Positions 1,431-30,159 of a stretch of DNA of 33,081 nt are shown here, piece after piece. The stretch spans positions 1 through 33,081 of the forward strand of contig JAKPVM010000036.1 of assembly GCA_029572555.1 (NCBI GenBank), in the 5' to 3' direction. The notes under the pieces were generated by a model that did not search any database, was not told where the DNA came from, and was given only the letters and a program-made list of their open reading frames with translations. The position numbers and the translations under genes were made by a program. Origin of the DNA: Verrucomicrobiota bacterium (lineage in GTDB: Bacteria; Verrucomicrobiota; Verrucomicrobiia; Limisphaerales; JAKPVM01). Numbering within the stretch: position 1 is the first letter of the stretch; each line of letters opens with the position of its first letter.

Positions 1431-3260
1431 TTACACAATCACCGTTGGAATTTCAATGAAACCTTGAAGTTGTCGCAATCGTGTAGGATGCCTCATTTTT
1501 CTTAGGGCTTTTGCTTCTATTTGACGTATTCGTTCACGGGTTACTTTGAATTGTTTACCGACTTCTTCAAGTGTTCGCGAGTAGCCATCAACTAATCCGA
1601 ATCTTAATTCGAGCACTTTTCTTTCACGTTCTGTAAGACTCCCGAGTACGTCGCCGAGTTTATCCTTCAATAAACTAAAGCTTGTCATTTCTGATGGATT
1701 TTCTGCGGTTTTATCCTCAATGAAATCGCCAAAGTTAGTATCCTCGCTATCACCTACAGGTGATTGAAGCGAAATTGGTTGTTGAGCCATTTTCAGGATG
1801 GACCTAACTCGTTCAACCGCTATTTGCATTTCATCGGCTATTTCTTCAGGAGTGGGTTCTCGTCCAAATTCTTGCACAAGTTGTTTTTGAACGCGCATTA
1901 GTTTATTGATTATCTCAATCATGTGAACCGGGATTCTAATGGTCCTTGCCTGGTCAGCTATTGAACGAGTAATTGCCTGACGTATCCACCAGGTTGCATA
2001 AGTTGAAAATTTGTATCCACGGCGATATTCAAACTTTTCAACAGCCTTCATTAATCCCATATTTCCTTCCTGAATCAGGTCAAGAAAAGAAAGTCCGCGG
2101 TTTGTGTATTTTTTAGCAATTGAGATTACAAGACGGAGGTTTGCCTCTACCATCTCCGTTTTAGCCTGGAGCGCCTTTCTGGAATATTCCTTTAACTCTT
2201 TGAATAATTCCATATATTCATTAGAAGGCATCCTCACCATTATTTCAAGTGATTTAATTACATTCAGTTCTGCTTGAAGAGTGGCATCGTTTTCTGGCAC
2301 CTTTCTCCTCTTTAAATCTTCAATCTTATTAAAGCTTGATTGGAACTTATCGTAGATGTTCTCGGCGACCAGCGCAATCTCTTCGATTACTTTTTGTTTG
2401 TAATAAAATTTAGGGAATGTTGCCAGCAGTTTCTTTTCAAGTTTTTTTAGTTCTTTTTCAATCTCATCACGTTTTTGTTTTTTGCTTACAGATATAAAAA
2501 ACGCATATTTTTGGTCAATTTCCTGATCAATTACTCTTGTTTTTTTAATAATCTTCCTTAAATCTTTGAGATGTTCGTCGCGGCTATCTACCTTTTTATC
2601 TACAATAACCCTATCGAATCTTTCTTTTGGGGGTTCAGAAATAAGTTTATCAGCAAGGGCAATATGCTCTTTGGCTGTAAAACCAAAGCTGTAAATGATT
2701 TGTTTTACACGGTTTTCAGCCTCCTCAATTCTCTTTGATATTTCAACCTCTTGTTCTCGGGTGAGTAATGGGACTTGTCCCATTTGTTTTAGATACATTC
2801 TTACCGGGTCGTCGAGAATATCCAGATGTTCTTTATCCTCTTCATCTAAAGGTTCAATTTGTTTTATTTGGTCAACTTCTGCCTGGTCAACGATGTCAAT
2901 GTCAAAGCTTCTTAGTTTTGTTAATATATCATCATAATCGTCAGGGGAGAGTATTTTGTCTGGCAGGGCTTCATTTATGTCTGAATATGTTAGATAGCCC
3001 TGGTCTTTAGCCAAACGGACAAGTTCTTTAATTTTATCATTTATTTCTTCTTTTAATAAAATGTCGGAATCTCCATTGGAAAACGAATTGTCGTTGACTA
3101 AAACAAGTTTAATAGATTTTGCAATAGCAATGCGAGATTTAGCATTATCTTTAGAAAAATTGGTTTTTCTCGCCCTTGTTCTTCTGGATAGTCTTTTGCT
3201 TTTTTGCAGTAAATTATGTTTTTTTAATTTTTTAAAGTTATTCTTTTTTGTCCTGGCCAT
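1431..3260 (-). CDS. rpoD: RNA polymerase primary sigma factor (sigma-70, RpoD)
   Basis: This is the housekeeping sigma factor, which directs RNA polymerase to -35/-10 promoters. In order: a region 1.1-like segment (about 71-125), region 1.2 (151-182, [11 protein letters not shown]), a long Lys/Glu-rich non-conserved region (about 183-365), and region 2 (366-440). Region 2 includes the core-binding and melting motifs [28 protein letters not shown] and [15 protein letters not shown]. Region 3 follows (about 441-520), then region 4 (541-602) with [15 protein letters not shown] and the helix-turn-helix [20 protein letters not shown]. All signature blocks are intact and the length, 609, is normal. 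Unusual is the first 50 residues, extremely rich in Lys and Arg, placed ahead of the acidic region 1.1. It lies downstream of the pyruvate dehydrogenase genes on the same strand, 100 bases after lpd, with its own candidate promoter in the gap. The usual dnaG neighbour is absent. Confidence 0.97.
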
Positions 3261-25541: not shown

Positions 25542-26093
25542 TTATTTTTTCTTTTTAGGTTGAACTGCTTTGGCAACATTATTCAGACCGCGAACAATCC
25601 GTTCTGCCTCTTCACGAGTGGCATCCGGAGTAAAGACAAAGACGCCGTTCGAAATTCTTTGTGTAATCAAAGGTGCAGCAATCCACCTGGCGTCTCCAAA
25701 TTGACAAAATATTGCAATATGTCTTCCCTTGTTTGAAGTTGTTAATTCGTCTAACAATATTGTTCCGGTTGAGTCAAATATGATTCTAATCGCATAAGTA
25801 CCCATAAACTCAACAACATCTGCCCTTTCTACAAAACCTTCGTGTAATGAAGGTGCCCTATCAACCAGGATTATCATCGGTTTTGCCCTGTAAATGCTTG
25901 CTTGAACACAACGGTCTGAGCCGTCGGGATTCATCTCGCAATGGAAGCTAATTTTGGTTGCTTCTTTTCCTGAAGATTTTTTCTGTTTCGGTGGCGCATC
26001 ATCCTTTTTTATAGTCTCTTTATTATGTGCACAACCAACCAGCAACATTACTGACATCAAAATTATGTTGAATCTTAAAATTTTTATGTTCAT
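25542..26093 (-). CDS. Lipoprotein with SecD first-periplasmic-domain-like fold
   Basis: The 183-residue lipoprotein has lipobox LLVGC with Cys21 as the lipidation site. A Lys-rich linker follows, then a domain (about 48-175) resembling the head of the SecD/SecDF P1 periplasmic region: the sequence FDSTGTILLDELTTSNKGRHIAIFCQFGDARWIAAPLI and the closing FTPDATREEAERIVRGLN follow the SecD pattern of a strand, a glycine-rich turn, an AAPxI strand and a final helix. No membrane helices of SecD are present, so this is a free domain anchored in a lipid layer rather than a translocase. Similar free-standing P1-like domains are known as uncharacterised lipoproteins. It ends in Lys-rich KPKKKK and is linked to the M23 peptidase gene, 9 bases downstream. 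A direct role is not known. Confidence 0.8.
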   Translation of the reverse strand: MNIKILRFNIILMSVMLLVGCAHNKETIKKDDAPPKQKKSSGKEATKISFHCEMNPDGSDRCVQASIYRAKPMIILVDRAPSLHEGFVERADVVEFMGTYAIRIIFDSTGTILLDELTTSNKGRHIAIFCQFGDARWIAAPLITQRISNGVFVFTPDATREEAERIVRGLNNVAKAVQPKKKK

Positions 26094-26096
26094 ATT
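26068..26096 (+). promoter_or_regulatory. Candidate promoter for the small basic protein gene
   Basis: TTGAAT (26068-26073) and CATATT (26091-26096) are separated by 17 bases and each match four of six consensus bases. They sit inside the start of the divergent lipoprotein gene, since only 32 bases separate the two start codons. The site gives a leader of about 20-25 bases. Confidence 0.35.
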
Positions 26097-26125
26097 TTAA
26101 CAGAATTATAAACATATAAAGTTTT

Positions 26126-26287
26126 ATGAGCAAACAATACAACAAAATTATAAAACAAAGACGCCGAAAGGCTTACATAAAGCGGAAAAAGAAATTAGAA
26201 AAGTTAGCCGCAAAAACAAAGAAACAAAGCCAAGCAGAGCAAACCGCTCCACCTGCCGAGCAACCAAAAAGTGGAGCAACTGCTTAG
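26126..26287 (+). CDS. Small, highly basic 53-residue protein
   Basis: ATG at 26126 to TAG at 26285-26287. The protein begins MSKQYNKIIKQRRRKAYI, continues with KRKKKLEKLAAKTKKQ, and ends with a short Gln/Pro/Ala tail. About half of the first 34 residues are Lys or Arg, so it is probably a nucleic-acid or ribosome-associated protein. Similar tiny proteins with an N-terminal YNK..K+RRR motif occur in PVC bacteria as far as I recall, but I cannot name a verified family. Evidence that it is real: a promoter candidate just upstream, a strong terminator 26 bases after the stop, and codon content like its neighbours. It is divergent from the SecD-P1-like lipoprotein gene by 32 bases. Function unknown. 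Confidence 0.7.
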   Translation: MSKQYNKIIKQRRRKAYIKRKKKLEKLAAKTKKQSQAEQTAPPAEQPKSGATA

Positions 26288-26312
26288 TATAAAATATTAA
26301 TTATAGAACGAC

Positions 26313-26340
26313 ACCGCCAGTTCTGGCGGTTTTTTATTTT
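26313..26340 (+). terminator. Rho-independent terminator of the small basic protein gene
   Basis: ACCGCCAG (26313-26320) and CTGGCGGT (26323-26330) form a perfect 8-bp inverted repeat directly followed by a T-rich run. It starts 26 bases after the TAG of the small gene and is the clearest simple terminator in the window. It also insulates the downstream RNA region from this transcript. Confidence 0.85.
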
Positions 26341-26561
26341 AAAACCATCAGAACTAATTAAACGGGAACAATTTTGTAATAAGAAGTTATTAACAACCAA
26401 GATTAAATAAATATTCAAGTTGTGAATAACTTTTATGATGATAATTTTGTTTATGAATTATAGGGCAAATTTTCAATTTTAATTCACTTATAAAAATCAA
26501 TCTTGTGGATAATTTGTGCATATCTTTTCATTTACGAAATGTGAAAAATGGTTAATGTTAT
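26341..26561. other. Very AT-rich spacer with two DnaA-box-like 9-mers
   Basis: No gene is seen. The stretch is strongly AT-rich (26461-26520 has 15 G or C of 60). Two 9-mers read on the minus strand as TTATTCACA (26421-26429, one mismatch from the DnaA box) and TTATCCACA (26504-26512, exact consensus). They are 83 bases apart and in the same orientation. The stretch also has to contain the promoter of the large RNA that follows, but I could not single out a convincing -35/-10 pair. Confidence 0.45.
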
Positions 26562-26565
26562 ATTA

Positions 26566-27428
26566 GTTCTTTGAAAGAACAGAGATATCAAACGGGTTGA
26601 AAAATATCTGTCAATGATATCTCGGGATAATCCTGGGTGACCGGGGAAAGGTTGTGCTGGGCTGGTCGGCATAACCCCTCTATCAGACAGGTTAATTACC
26701 AATCTGATAAAGGCATAATTCACCAGTCCCTCTGGCAATGATCGTACATTGCCACATTGCGATTGAGGGATTAGGCGGTTAGGGGTGATTAGAAACCATC
26801 CCGAGCCGAGTAAAGTAACGTCCACTGGTTTCGGGTGGAGGTGAATCGCAGTTATCCAGAGGGTTTACGGTTGCTACTGTGCACCAGCACGGTCAGACGT
26901 ACTCAGAAAGCAGATATAAAAACCTGCAACAAAATCCCGTTGAATACGGGACAAAAAGAGCCATCTGACCGGGAAGGAATCTCGGTTCTGGCAAAACCGA
27001 AGGCACCTTCCACTGCCGGCGATTCTGAAAAGCAGAACCGCGGGCTTGCGAGAAAAAAGCAACCTGAGAGTTAAGAGGCGTGAGACCCGTCGCACCGGGC
27101 AAACGCACTGCCAAAAGCAGTGGCTGACCCGGCGCTAAGTGGTAGAGACGCGAATGTATCGCAAATGTGTCTTTACCTGGTCGGTAAGTAAGTGCCGCAA
27201 ACACTTGCTGAAGCGGGCTAAGAAGCCTCACTCAATAATTCAGCAACCGCAAGGTGCTGGACAGCCCTGCTATGAGGCTGATGACTCCGCCAGCCACGGA
27301 GAATGGCGTCGGGAAGCCGACAGCCTGATGAGCGCCTAATGTCGGCAACGGGAAAGAGAGCGTGGCGAACTCCCAACCCCCAATTTGTCCCTGTCGGTTC
27401 GCAAGAGCCGGCAGGGACTTATTGTTTT
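26566..27428 (+). ncRNA. Large structured non-coding RNA candidate, about 860 bases, class not recognised
   Basis: The region is much richer in GC than its flanks (27061-27120 has 35 G or C of 60) and is filled with perfect stems. Examples: 26582-26590/26615-26623 (9 bp), 26681-26687/26703-26709, 26734-26740/26747-26753 inside 26727-26732/26765-26770 inside 26674-26679/26781-26786, and 26891-26897/26964-26970 enclosing 26935-26940/26946-26951. Further on: 26972-26977/27006-27011 enclosing 26982-26987/26995-27000, 27095-27099/27128-27132 enclosing 27106-27111/27117-27122, 27141-27149/27169-27177 (9 bp) enclosing 27150-27153/27159-27162, 27224-27230/27273-27279, a GCAA-capped hairpin at 27241-27259, and 27305-27325. 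It ends in a 14-bp GCAA-loop terminator with a T-rich tail, which sets the strand as plus. Open frames inside cross the stems and have no recognisable product. The usual signatures of RNase P, tmRNA, SRP RNA and group II domain V were not found. Function unknown. Confidence 0.72.
27387..27428 (+). terminator. Terminator hairpin of the large RNA
   Basis: Bases 27387-27400 pair with 27405-27418 over 14 positions without mismatch (two G-U pairs), closed by a GCAA tetraloop (27401-27404) and followed by TTATTGTTTT. The stable GNRA-capped stem and T-rich tail fit an intrinsic terminator; the stem may also protect the RNA 3' end. Confidence 0.8.
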
Positions 27429-27475
27429 AAGGAAAGCGATTTTACCACACTAATTGTCAAAACTAAGTGAAAAGA

Positions 27476-27766
27476 TTCTCGCAGATGTCGCAGAGATATA
27501 AGAACGCAGATAAACGGAGAGATACTATATGTATCCTTGCCTGTGGTTTCCAATGTGGTGTCAGCATCCTTGCTGACAATTCTAATACTCGGGAGCAAGG
27601 ATGCTCCCGCCACCCTTAGAGTAGCATAGGCATTCCTGCCTGTAGAGGCAAATAGAATCGTGAGATTTACAGGGATTTTTTATTTTTAACACGGATAGAC
27701 AGGATGAACAGGATATTTTATAAGACACAAGGATAAACAAGATACAATTTTTTATCCTGTACATCC
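27476..27766. repeat. Dispersed repeat region: CGCAGA copies, tetraloop hairpins and GGATNNACA inverted repeats
   Basis: This covers most of the 556-base gene-free gap after the large RNA. CGCAGA occurs at 27480, 27489 and 27505. A hairpin set follows: TGTCAGCA/TGCTGACA (27559-27578), CGGGAGCA/TGCTCCCG (27590-27609) and AGGCA/TGCCT (27628-27641), each with a 4-base loop and centres 31-35 bases apart. Bases 27552-27581 are identical to 10564-10593. Next come GATTTACAGGGAT (27664-27676), GGATAGACA and GGATGAACA units (27693-27710), and an inverted partner: 27702-27715 against 27753-27766, 13 of 14 positions matching. The same units occur at both arms of the 10.2-10.8 kb element. No gene is seen in it. 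Confidence 0.7.
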
Positions 27767-27814
27767 AATTTCTTTTCCTTATTTCAGAGGTGATTTTTAA
27801 AATGTGTTAAAAAA

Positions 27815-27850
27815 CTCCTGAAAAATCAGGGGTCAGAACTTGATTTTTAC
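27815..27850. repeat. Hairpin followed by a GGGGTCAGAACTTGA-type end sequence
   Basis: CTCCTGA/TCAGGGG (27815-27832) forms a short hairpin with a 4-base loop and runs directly into GGGGTCAGAACTTGATTTTT. Sequences of the form GGGGTCAG(G/A)(T/A)CTTGA are, as I recall them, common at the ends of REP/RAYT (TnpA-REP) type elements. No transposase gene is present, so this would be a relic. The rest of the gap to 27984 shows nothing further. Confidence 0.35.
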
Positions 27851-27984
27851 TAATTATGAGATGATAATATTTCCGTTTCTTTTTCACACCCTACTTTTAC
27901 AGTTTAAAAAAATCCTTAATTGCAACTCCGTTCATTCATCTATTTAATTGAATTAATTCCTCCTCTGCTTATATCTTTTAATAA

Positions 27985-30159
27985 ATGGCAAGTATCTCAA
28001 AAGATATGTCTGATAGGAATATTCTAATTTCCATCGGATTGCTTGGCGCATCGGCATTAACCGTGCAATTAATTCTAATGAGAGAACTGCTTGCCACTTT
28101 TAACGGCAACGAATTATCAATCGCCATTATTCTTGGGAATTGGCTTTTCTTGAGCGGGATTGGTTCATATATAGGACGGCGTTTTTCATTTAAAACCGAT
28201 ATTTCAATTCCAGGAATTTTGCATTTTTTAATCGCACTAATACCAATAATCGAACTTATTACAATAAGGCTATTGAGAGACAAAATATTCACCAGAGGTT
28301 CTCTTATTGGAATAACAGAAATGGTCGTTTCAACTTTTATACTACTGCTCCCGTTCTGCGTTATATCAGGCTTTTTTCTTGTGTTAGCGTGTGAACTTGC
28401 TTCCGGACGATATTCATCAGGAAAAATTTATATTTCCGATAGTATAGGCAGCGTCATCGGCGGGATTTTTTTCAGTTTTCTCCTGCTCCAATTTTTTGAC
28501 CATTTTAAAATCCTTGCTTTTGTCTCAATGCTTAATTTTCTTTTTTCAATAGTTCTATTCTATTATGGACGGTTTAAACTTTTGAGCATTATATCAGGGA
28601 TAATTTTAATTATAACAGCCACAGTTACATTCAAATACGATGTTGACTTTTACCTTACCCAAAAACAATTTCCTGAACAAAAACTGCTATTCAGCGGCAA
28701 TTCCCCACAGGGACGTATCGTCAGTACTGAATATCAAGGACAAATAAATTTTATTGAAAACGGAGTCCCGCTCAGTCCATCGCACAACTTGCAACAAGCA
28801 GAAGAAACAGTCCATTTTGCAATGGCTCAACGTCCACAAGCAAAAACAGTGTTGTTAATCGGTGGCGGTTATACAGGCACTGCGCAGGAAATCTTAAAAT
28901 ATAGTGTTAGTAGAGTTGATTATGTTGAAATTGATTCATTGATAATCAACCTTACAAAACAATTTTTAAAAGAAAAAATATCATCTCAAAAAATCAACAT
29001 TATCAACACCGATGGACGAAAATATATAAGGGAAACGACTGAAAAATACGATGTAATAATCATTGACGTCCCCGATCCAACAACATCGCAAATTAATCGA
29101 TTTTACACATTAGAATTTTTCAAAGAATGTCTTCGAGTTCTCAAACCAGACGGAGTTATCTCATTTGGGATAGCCCACTATGAAAATTATGTCAGCGAAG
29201 GCATTATCAAAATCTTAAGCACCACATCTCAAACATTAAGAGAATGTTTTAAAAATATTTTAATTGTTCCCGCAGGCAGAGTTTATTTTATAGCCTCTAA
29301 TAATAATATGTCTTCCGAAATTGCCGATGAACTTGAACGGCTGCAGATTCAAACCCGATATGTTAGAAGAGGATATTTAAACTCCATAATGACACCTGAC
29401 CGATTAGCAGACATAAAAGAAGCAACTTCACATCAATCTCACATTAACAAAGATTTCAATCCTGTCTTGTATTTTTACAACATCCAGCACTGGATGAGCC
29501 AGTTCAGGATTAAATTCGGTTTATTGCAGTTCATACTACTCGGAATAGTTGCAGTTTATATTTTAAAAATGCAATTAACTCAACTGACAATATTTGCCTC
29601 CGGTTTTACTGGCGCTGCTCTTGAAATTGTTTTGTTGTTTGCGTTCCAAATTATATATGGGTCTCTTTATCTCCAACTTTCTATAATAGTAACCTTATTT
29701 ATGTGTGGACTAACTTTTGGGGGCCTCTATTCAAACCATTGGCTTAATAATAAATTCAACACAGACGCAAAAATTAATACCGCCATCAAAAGACTTTTCA
29801 ATTTAACCATTCTATTAGCCCTGATTGGGGCACTGATTTATCCTGCGCTATGGATATTTTTGAAACTAATATCGGGCTATCCAATCATCTCTCAATGCGG
29901 GATTCCTGCAATTACATTTATTGTGGCGCTTATTGCCGGTTCTCAATTCCCTATTGCCTGCGCAGTTGCGTCGGAAAGAAAAATTGAAGGCGCCTCCAAA
30001 ATTTACACCGCTGATTTTATCGGTTCATCAATTGGTTCAATGCTTGCCGGCACACTTTTAATTCCCGTTGCGGGGGTATTCTCCACCTGCGCAATTACAT
30101 CGTTATTCAATATTCTATGCGCAACTCTTTTATACTTTAATTTAAAAAAAATTGGATAA
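27985..30159 (+). CDS. Membrane protein with central spermidine-synthase-like domain
   Basis: The 724-residue protein has three parts. Residues about 12-215 contain roughly seven membrane segments (including ILISIGLLGASALTVQLILMREL). A soluble aminopropyltransferase-like methyltransferase-fold domain follows (about 228-460), then about six to seven further membrane segments (about 512-722). In the central domain, GGGYTG (293-298), DYVEID (312-317), NTDGRKYI (341-348) and IIDVPDPTTS (359-368, with Asp361 and Asp364) follow the nucleotide- and substrate-binding order of spermidine synthases. Such membrane-embedded synthase fusions are widespread in bacteria but their substrate is unsettled; polyamine synthesis is only the family-based guess. 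It is the first gene of a plus-strand run with hisI and trpE, but with 64 bases before hisI and no shared pathway. The start has no Shine-Dalgarno. Confidence 0.85.
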   Translation: MASISKDMSDRNILISIGLLGASALTVQLILMRELLATFNGNELSIAIILGNWLFLSGIGSYIGRRFSFKTDISIPGILHFLIALIPIIELITIRLLRDKIFTRGSLIGITEMVVSTFILLLPFCVISGFFLVLACELASGRYSSGKIYISDSIGSVIGGIFFSFLLLQFFDHFKILAFVSMLNFLFSIVLFYYGRFKLLSIISGIILIITATVTFKYDVDFYLTQKQFPEQKLLFSGNSPQGRIVSTEYQGQINFIENGVPLSPSHNLQQAEETVHFAMAQRPQAKTVLLIGGGYTGTAQEILKYSVSRVDYVEIDSLIINLTKQFLKEKISSQKINIINTDGRKYIRETTEKYDVIIIDVPDPTTSQINRFYTLEFFKECLRVLKPDGVISFGIAHYENYVSEGIIKILSTTSQTLRECFKNILIVPAGRVYFIASNNNMSSEIADELERLQIQTRYVRRGYLNSIMTPDRLADIKEATSHQSHINKDFNPVLYFYNIQHWMSQFRIKFGLLQFILLGIVAVYILKMQLTQLTIFASGFTGAALEIVLLFAFQIIYGSLYLQLSIIVTLFMCGLTFGGLYSNHWLNNKFNTDAKINTAIKRLFNLTILLALIGALIYPALWIFLKLISGYPIISQCGIPAITFIVALIAGSQFPIACAVASERKIEGASKIYTADFIGSSIGSMLAGTLLIPVAGVFSTCAITSLFNILCATLLYFNLKKIG

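Follow-up and report, generated by a model that had tools for sequence, protein, structure and literature searches.

A full-length MISL RNA in a Verrucomicrobiota genome: a pseudoknotted fold, predicted transcript ends and probable control by DnaA

Several large, ornate, stand-alone bacterial RNAs are known whose function is unclear, among them ROOL, GOLLD and OLE (PMC12286853). The raiA motif (ModT) RNA, in the part of its literature drawn on here, is likewise noncoding, conserved and structured, with a complex fold, and the HEARO and OMEGA RNAs are structured and several hundred bases long. The RNA described here resembles all of these. It lies in a stretch of 33,081 nucleotides ("the window") from contig JAKPVM010000036.1 of a Verrucomicrobiota assembly (GCA_029572555.1), and it differs from them in being a MISL RNA, chromosomal in Verrucomicrobiota: the window has no Rfam match to ROOL, GOLLD, OLE, HEARO or OMEGA RNAs or to the raiA motif (another family, with hosts given in the same part of its literature as Bacillota and others), and the window proteins examined near MISL include no nuclease gene.

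Positions 26625 to 27373 of the plus strand match Rfam family RF03079 (MISL) over model positions 1-751 at 567.2 bits in cmscan (E-value about 1e-172 to 7.8e-172), roughly twice the gathering cut-off of 274.6 bits, and it is practically certain that the RNA of about 860 bases is a full-length MISL. A sequence-only reading of this region had left it without an assigned class, possibly a new one, and had named an Rfam search as the check by which novelty would fall; the family is already known, and this copy is a further member of it. Other parts of that reading have fared better. The large structured RNA is real, given the MISL match and the covariation among homologues described below, and it stands apart from OLE, GOLLD, ROOL and HEARO, none of whose models is matched in a cmscan to E = 5 over 26000-28000, where all Rfam matches besides MISL stay under their own cut-offs. 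The GC-rich island in AT-rich DNA is there (52-53% GC at 26751-27500, against about 37% in the flanks), as is the absence of a plausible protein: the only two ORFs of at least 80 amino acids in the RNA region (97 and 112 amino acids) are on the minus strand and have no Pfam match. The lack of a tRNA or HNH-nuclease context was also seen correctly, with no tRNA anywhere in the window and no nuclease gene among the nearby proteins examined. Folding gives -355.5 kcal/mol for the plus strand (z = -8.2 against dinucleotide shuffles), and the minus strand does equally well (z = -8.4, same control); since folding energy does not separate the two, the choice of strand is based on the family match and on covariation. 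The 3.34-Mb assembly contains a single MISL copy. No published function was found for MISL in the open literature searched, where the RNA appears in one chemical-mapping data paper.

The fold was evaluated in an alignment of 108 non-redundant MISL homologues with a mean identity of 64%. Every column pair was scored by a G statistic with APC correction, the null being generated by replaying substitutions on the tree; the test is an implementation of our own rather than R-scape, and helix support was drawn in addition from pair counts compared with shuffles. The elements concerned are:
26625..27373, plus strand: MISL RNA core, the RF03079 cmscan match.
26869-26874 (GGUUGC) with 27059-27064 (GCAACC), plus strand: PK1, a long-range pseudoknot that is not in the Rfam structure.
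27046-27051 with 27159-27164, plus strand: PK2, a long-range pseudoknot that is not in the Rfam structure.
26742-26746 with 26758-26762, plus strand: PK3, a pseudoknot called from pair counts.
27268-27272 with 27304-27308, plus strand: PK4, a pseudoknot called from pair counts.
26902-26904 with 26958-26960, plus strand: junction stem that closes two hairpins and is absent from the Rfam structure.
27059..27090, plus strand: the most conserved core, GCAACCUGAGAGUUAAGAGGCGUGAGACCCGU, with runs at least 93% conserved in the 108 homologues.

The covariation that the sequence-only reading had asked for is present: 27 base pairs covary at E <=0.05 in these homologues. Most of them fall in Rfam consensus helices, which are thereby supported in this clade; those outside are in PK1 (26871/27062), in the hairpin at the 3' end, and at the poorly paired 27082/27224. 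The supported helices that the Rfam MISL model lacks comprise at least four covarying pseudoknots, the junction stem, a 5' stem and the terminator-like 3' hairpin, the novelty of the pseudoknots being relative to the Rfam structure line only. Individually significant pairs among these extra helices are in PK1 and the 3' hairpin, and the others are supported by stacked pairs with compensatory types and by pairing above that of shuffles. PK1 is the strongest long-range contact, with 98% of cells paired against 90% when shuffled and with the pair 26871/27062 (UA 81, CG 20, AU 3) above every null value. For PK2 the corresponding figures are 96% and 86% (27050/27160: AU 57, GC 41, CG 3), for PK3 96% and 87.5% (26745/26759: CG 64, UA 40), and for the junction stem 87% and 67%, while PK4 is 100% paired (27271/27305: UA 43, CG 39, UG 26). 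The alignment thus supports a multi-domain MISL fold that would be held together by at least four pseudoknots.

One possibility, compatible with the explanation preferred below, is that MISL forms a homo-oligomeric RNA cage or scaffold in the manner of ROOL, GOLLD and OLE, which assemble into RNA-only multimers (PMC12286853). Size and ornateness are alike, and several conserved stretches of MISL have no intramolecular partner, but the raiA motif, also ornate, is a monomer in the same study; by analogy, then, oligomerization is conceivable and on balance doubtful.

The predicted transcript is longer than the Rfam model, by about 59 nt upstream and about 55 nt downstream, and its ends are marked by the following:
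26549..26558, plus strand: predicted extended -10 element, the window copy TGGTTAATGT being a weak match to the family consensus TGNTANNNT.
26566..26580, plus strand: 5'-terminal hairpin, GUUC-UUUGAAA-GAAC, boxA-like and conserved upstream of nearly all MISL loci.
26582..26623, plus strand: 5' domain stem, outside the Rfam model.
27387..27418, plus strand: terminator-like 3' hairpin of 14 pairs, then a T-rich tail, from a terminator scan; outside the Rfam model.

A transcript of about 860 nt, from about 26566 to about 27428, is predicted from these elements, its start being likewise a prediction. The limits proposed by the sequence-only reading were nearly exact, since the 5' hairpin begins at 26566 and the terminator-like stem runs to 27418 before its T-rich tail, and the dedicated 14-bp terminator that it described was recovered by the scan and covaries in homologues (98% paired against 73% shuffled over nine tested pairs, seven of which vary). 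No sigma-70 promoter (-35/-10) passes a strict scan, and the -10 call is based on conservation in the aligned upstream regions. The 15-base 5' hairpin is GUUCNUUGAAAGAAC in the window's own order, where it lies about 58-60 nt ahead of the core and is preceded by a TGNTANNNT-like -10, and GUUCCUUGAUAGAAC in Opitutales. It is nearly invariant (95.6% paired against 94.8% shuffled) and so is without covariation support, unlike the adjacent 5' stem, in which 26582-26584 pairs with 26620-26622 in 88% of cells against 57% when shuffled, one of the pairs showing four Watson-Crick types. A boxA antitermination leader of the rRNA kind is one possible reading of the hairpin, which nearly matches the boxA of the same genome's rRNA leader (GTTCTTTGAAA). 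In an Opitutales genome (G117), the rRNA boxA is GGCTCTTTGAAA and the MISL hairpin GTTCCTTGATA, and MISL does not track the rRNA boxA there.

MISL is patchily distributed. A search with the conserved pattern over named genomes gave 117 stretches; among the matches listed with a title (80 of 117), all are from Verrucomicrobiota bar one called only "bacterium". The hosts are mainly Opitutales and Pedosphaera/Limisphaerales MAGs, and a nucleotide search gave no related phage or plasmid records. MISL was matched in 24 of 289 genomes of a phylum-wide sample. Within the window's order it is found in 26 of 58 genomes; missing from the other 32, it is therefore not essential. Two Opitutales genomes have second copies (L092 and L168), both without DnaA boxes, which suggests a paralogue under different regulation. 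A position at the replication origin was ruled out from GC skew sampled along four complete genomes of Opitutales (G156, G332, G075, G148): in three of them MISL is within about 0.1-0.4 Mb of the skew terminus and in the other it is mid-arm, four genomes being too few for a positional rule.

The genes around MISL differ from order to order, and no neighbor is constant across orders. In the window's own order it is preceded by genes for an M23 peptidase, a SecDF-like lipoprotein and a small basic protein, and cysK lies downstream in 20 loci; in Opitutales the flanking genes code for an HrpB-like helicase on one side and a BipA-like GTPase on the other, names taken from a reading of the sequences rather than from a family search. 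The two elements next to MISL in the window are:
26126..26287, plus strand: ORF for a 53-aa Lys/Arg-rich basic protein (MSKQYNKIIKQRRRKAYIKRKK...), a neighbor outside MISL.
26313-26330: terminator-like site of the gene for the 53-aa protein, from a terminator scan.

The basic protein, which has no Pfam family, was considered as a specific MISL partner and ruled out, its gene being present in 52 of the 58 genomes of the order irrespective of MISL. Farther away, at 1431-3260, the window contains a gene for a primary-type sigma-70 factor with regions 1.1 to 4. In about 20 loci of its own order MISL is followed by cysK, and on that ground it could be taken for a cis-acting leader of a neighboring gene or an intron-like part of it. 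Against this, MISL has its own covarying terminator, the next gene downstream in the window starts 557 nt on (27985) and is not cysK, the neighbors in Opitutales are others, and cysK is kept in at least three loci without MISL, so that a cis-acting role is very improbable. The earlier description of an RNA standing alone between unrelated genes, not resembling a cis-regulatory element, is borne out by the terminator and the varying neighbors.

Twenty genomes of the same order that lack MISL keep the neighboring genes, without MISL and without its 5' hairpin, and a maximum-sensitivity profile search of these 20 loci ruled out a diverged copy hidden in them. As far as can be read from the loci compared, MISL is shown to be an autonomous unit with its own putative promoter region, 5' hairpin and terminator.

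A clue to regulation comes from sequences on the upstream side that resemble binding boxes for DnaA, the initiator protein of DNA replication:
26421..26429, minus strand: DnaA-box-like site TTATTCACA, by direct reading.
26504..26523, plus strand: paired DnaA box, TGTGGATAA-TT-TGTGCATAT, with 2-bp spacing and the same orientation, scoring 15/16.

The paired box precedes the predicted transcript start by about 43-62 nt. At -300..-100 from the start of the RNA core, the MISL loci (104-105) contain 166 copies of the box core TTATNCAC, a density of about 0.8 per 100 nt. The rest of these loci has 0.0038 copies per 100 nt and 1.6 Mb from complete Opitutales genomes has 0.003, which makes the enrichment more than 200-fold. 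A double box (at least 12 of 16 bases matching, with 2-3 bp spacing) is found in 94 of 105 MISL loci but in only 8 of 525 shuffled sequences and one of 315 other windows; about 10% of the loci are without clear boxes, including the second copies L092 and L168. E. coli DnaA favors boxes in pairs with 2 or 3 bp between them (PMC11317965), and in having paired boxes with this spacing by its promoter MISL looks, by sequence, like a member of the DnaA regulon.

In the window's own genome, the 19-base pattern of the paired box, TGTGNATAANNTGTGNATA, has three exact copies in the 3.34-Mb assembly: at MISL, at the 16S rRNA promoter (G000:C335:3140-3158, L287) and at the promoter of the mraZ division cluster (G000:C71:29488-29506, L285). 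Of two one-mismatch copies, one is at dnaA, and the reversed control has zero copies. A slightly wider version of the pattern, looked for in 32 genomes of the order, is found at dnaA in ten, at mraZ in five and at dnaB in one, as well as beside unrelated genes. Of the genomes with the pair upstream of dnaA, six have MISL and four lack it; for mraZ the numbers are two and three. A related pattern has only three exact matches in 12 Opitutales genomes (about 60 Mb), all beside MISL. In a genome without MISL, tandem GTGGACAACTG repeats with an 11-base period occur (L325:593-644, G034:C328). For one box-bearing locus (L302), a ParB-like reading was dropped when Pfam gave no confirmation.

Another possibility is that TTATNCACA-like sites bind a different factor of similar specificity, which would make MISL growth- or stress-regulated and unlinked to replication. 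The presence of the same pair at the genome's own rRNA promoter would fit, as would the C that Opitutales boxes often carry as ninth base (TTATTCACC), but the pair marks the promoters of dnaA, mraZ and dnaB in the genomes just listed, and both the 9-mer and its 2-3 bp spacing match what DnaA recognizes (PMC11317965), leaving this reading unlikely. Less probable still is that the boxes themselves are the point, as a DnaA-titrating or resetting site comparable to E. coli datA or DARS, with MISL a mere neighbor. The dense box clusters and the confinement of the exact paired-pattern matches in the 12 Opitutales genomes to MISL would agree with this, and titration at promoters has been discussed for E. 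coli (PMC12371093). On the other side, the boxes vanish together with MISL (19 of the 20 MISL-less loci have no DnaA-box core nearby), they keep a fixed place by the promoter, and the RNA fold is itself strongly conserved. That DnaA binds these boxes and controls MISL expression seems, from their sequence and placement, fairly probable.

The one exception among the 20 MISL-less loci (L196; G042:C39:2000-6800, minus strand) has, at about 850-1065, boxes and a -35-like element followed almost directly by the 3' hairpin. Its sequence marks it as a deletion scar holding only the two ends of the MISL unit, so MISL has been lost in at least that lineage.

Some indication of transcription comes from phage contigs. 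Three IMG/VR contigs of ssRNA phages, with maturation protein and replicase genes, begin with pieces of MISL, all in sense orientation:
L336:1-900, sense: nearly complete MISL.
L337:1-600, sense: MISL piece.
L339:1-330, sense: MISL piece.

The pieces differ in length and share 83-89% identity with the nearest of the host copies compared. In L336 and L337 the junction is at, or a few bases from, the position where relatives place the phage 5' end. MISL was found in none of 160 other contigs of the same scans; an RNase P control gave 64 contigs, 0 with a detectable RNA-phage gene, and a 16S control two matches only, too few to be informative. Virus-host chimeras are treated as a recognized assembly problem in the part of PMC8376068 drawn on here. 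The MISL-phage contigs are probably cDNA template-switch chimeras, because a junction near the phage 5' end fits run-off of reverse transcriptase followed by a template jump; genuine capture of MISL by RNA phages, making them recombinants, is possible and not favored. Since ssRNA phages exist only as RNA, both cases, chimera or recombinant, point to transcription of MISL on the expected strand.

Taken together, the reading preferred here (with a probability of about 0.6) is that this MISL RNA is an autonomous, pseudoknotted RNA, probably under DnaA control, that acts in trans as a structural RNA. Its transcription would start at a promoter directly before 26566 and stop at an intrinsic terminator near 27428, with no other gene included. 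DnaA would bind the paired boxes beside the promoter and set MISL expression jointly with dnaA, mraZ and, in its own genome, rRNA, so that the MISL level may track replication or growth. The RNA would then work in trans as a structural or RNP-scaffold RNA, a role to which we would give somewhat better than even odds because no neighbor is constant across orders and MISL has its own terminator. A bolder version, speculative and quite improbable as a whole, would have DnaA act as a transcription factor whose chief noncoding product is MISL; the RNA would be synthesized in time with the initiation of replication, would feed back on replication, division or ribosome output, and could be captured by RNA phages at their 5' ends via recombination.

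MISL is among the larger bacterial RNA classes, and no assigned role was found for it; the DnaA boxes are the first testable clue to one. The pseudoknots and likely ends define a construct for structure work, and because MISL is absent from over half of the genomes sampled in its order, natural comparisons exist. The paired boxes that its promoter has in common with those of dnaA and mraZ raise a more general question: is MISL part of the cell-cycle program of these bacteria?
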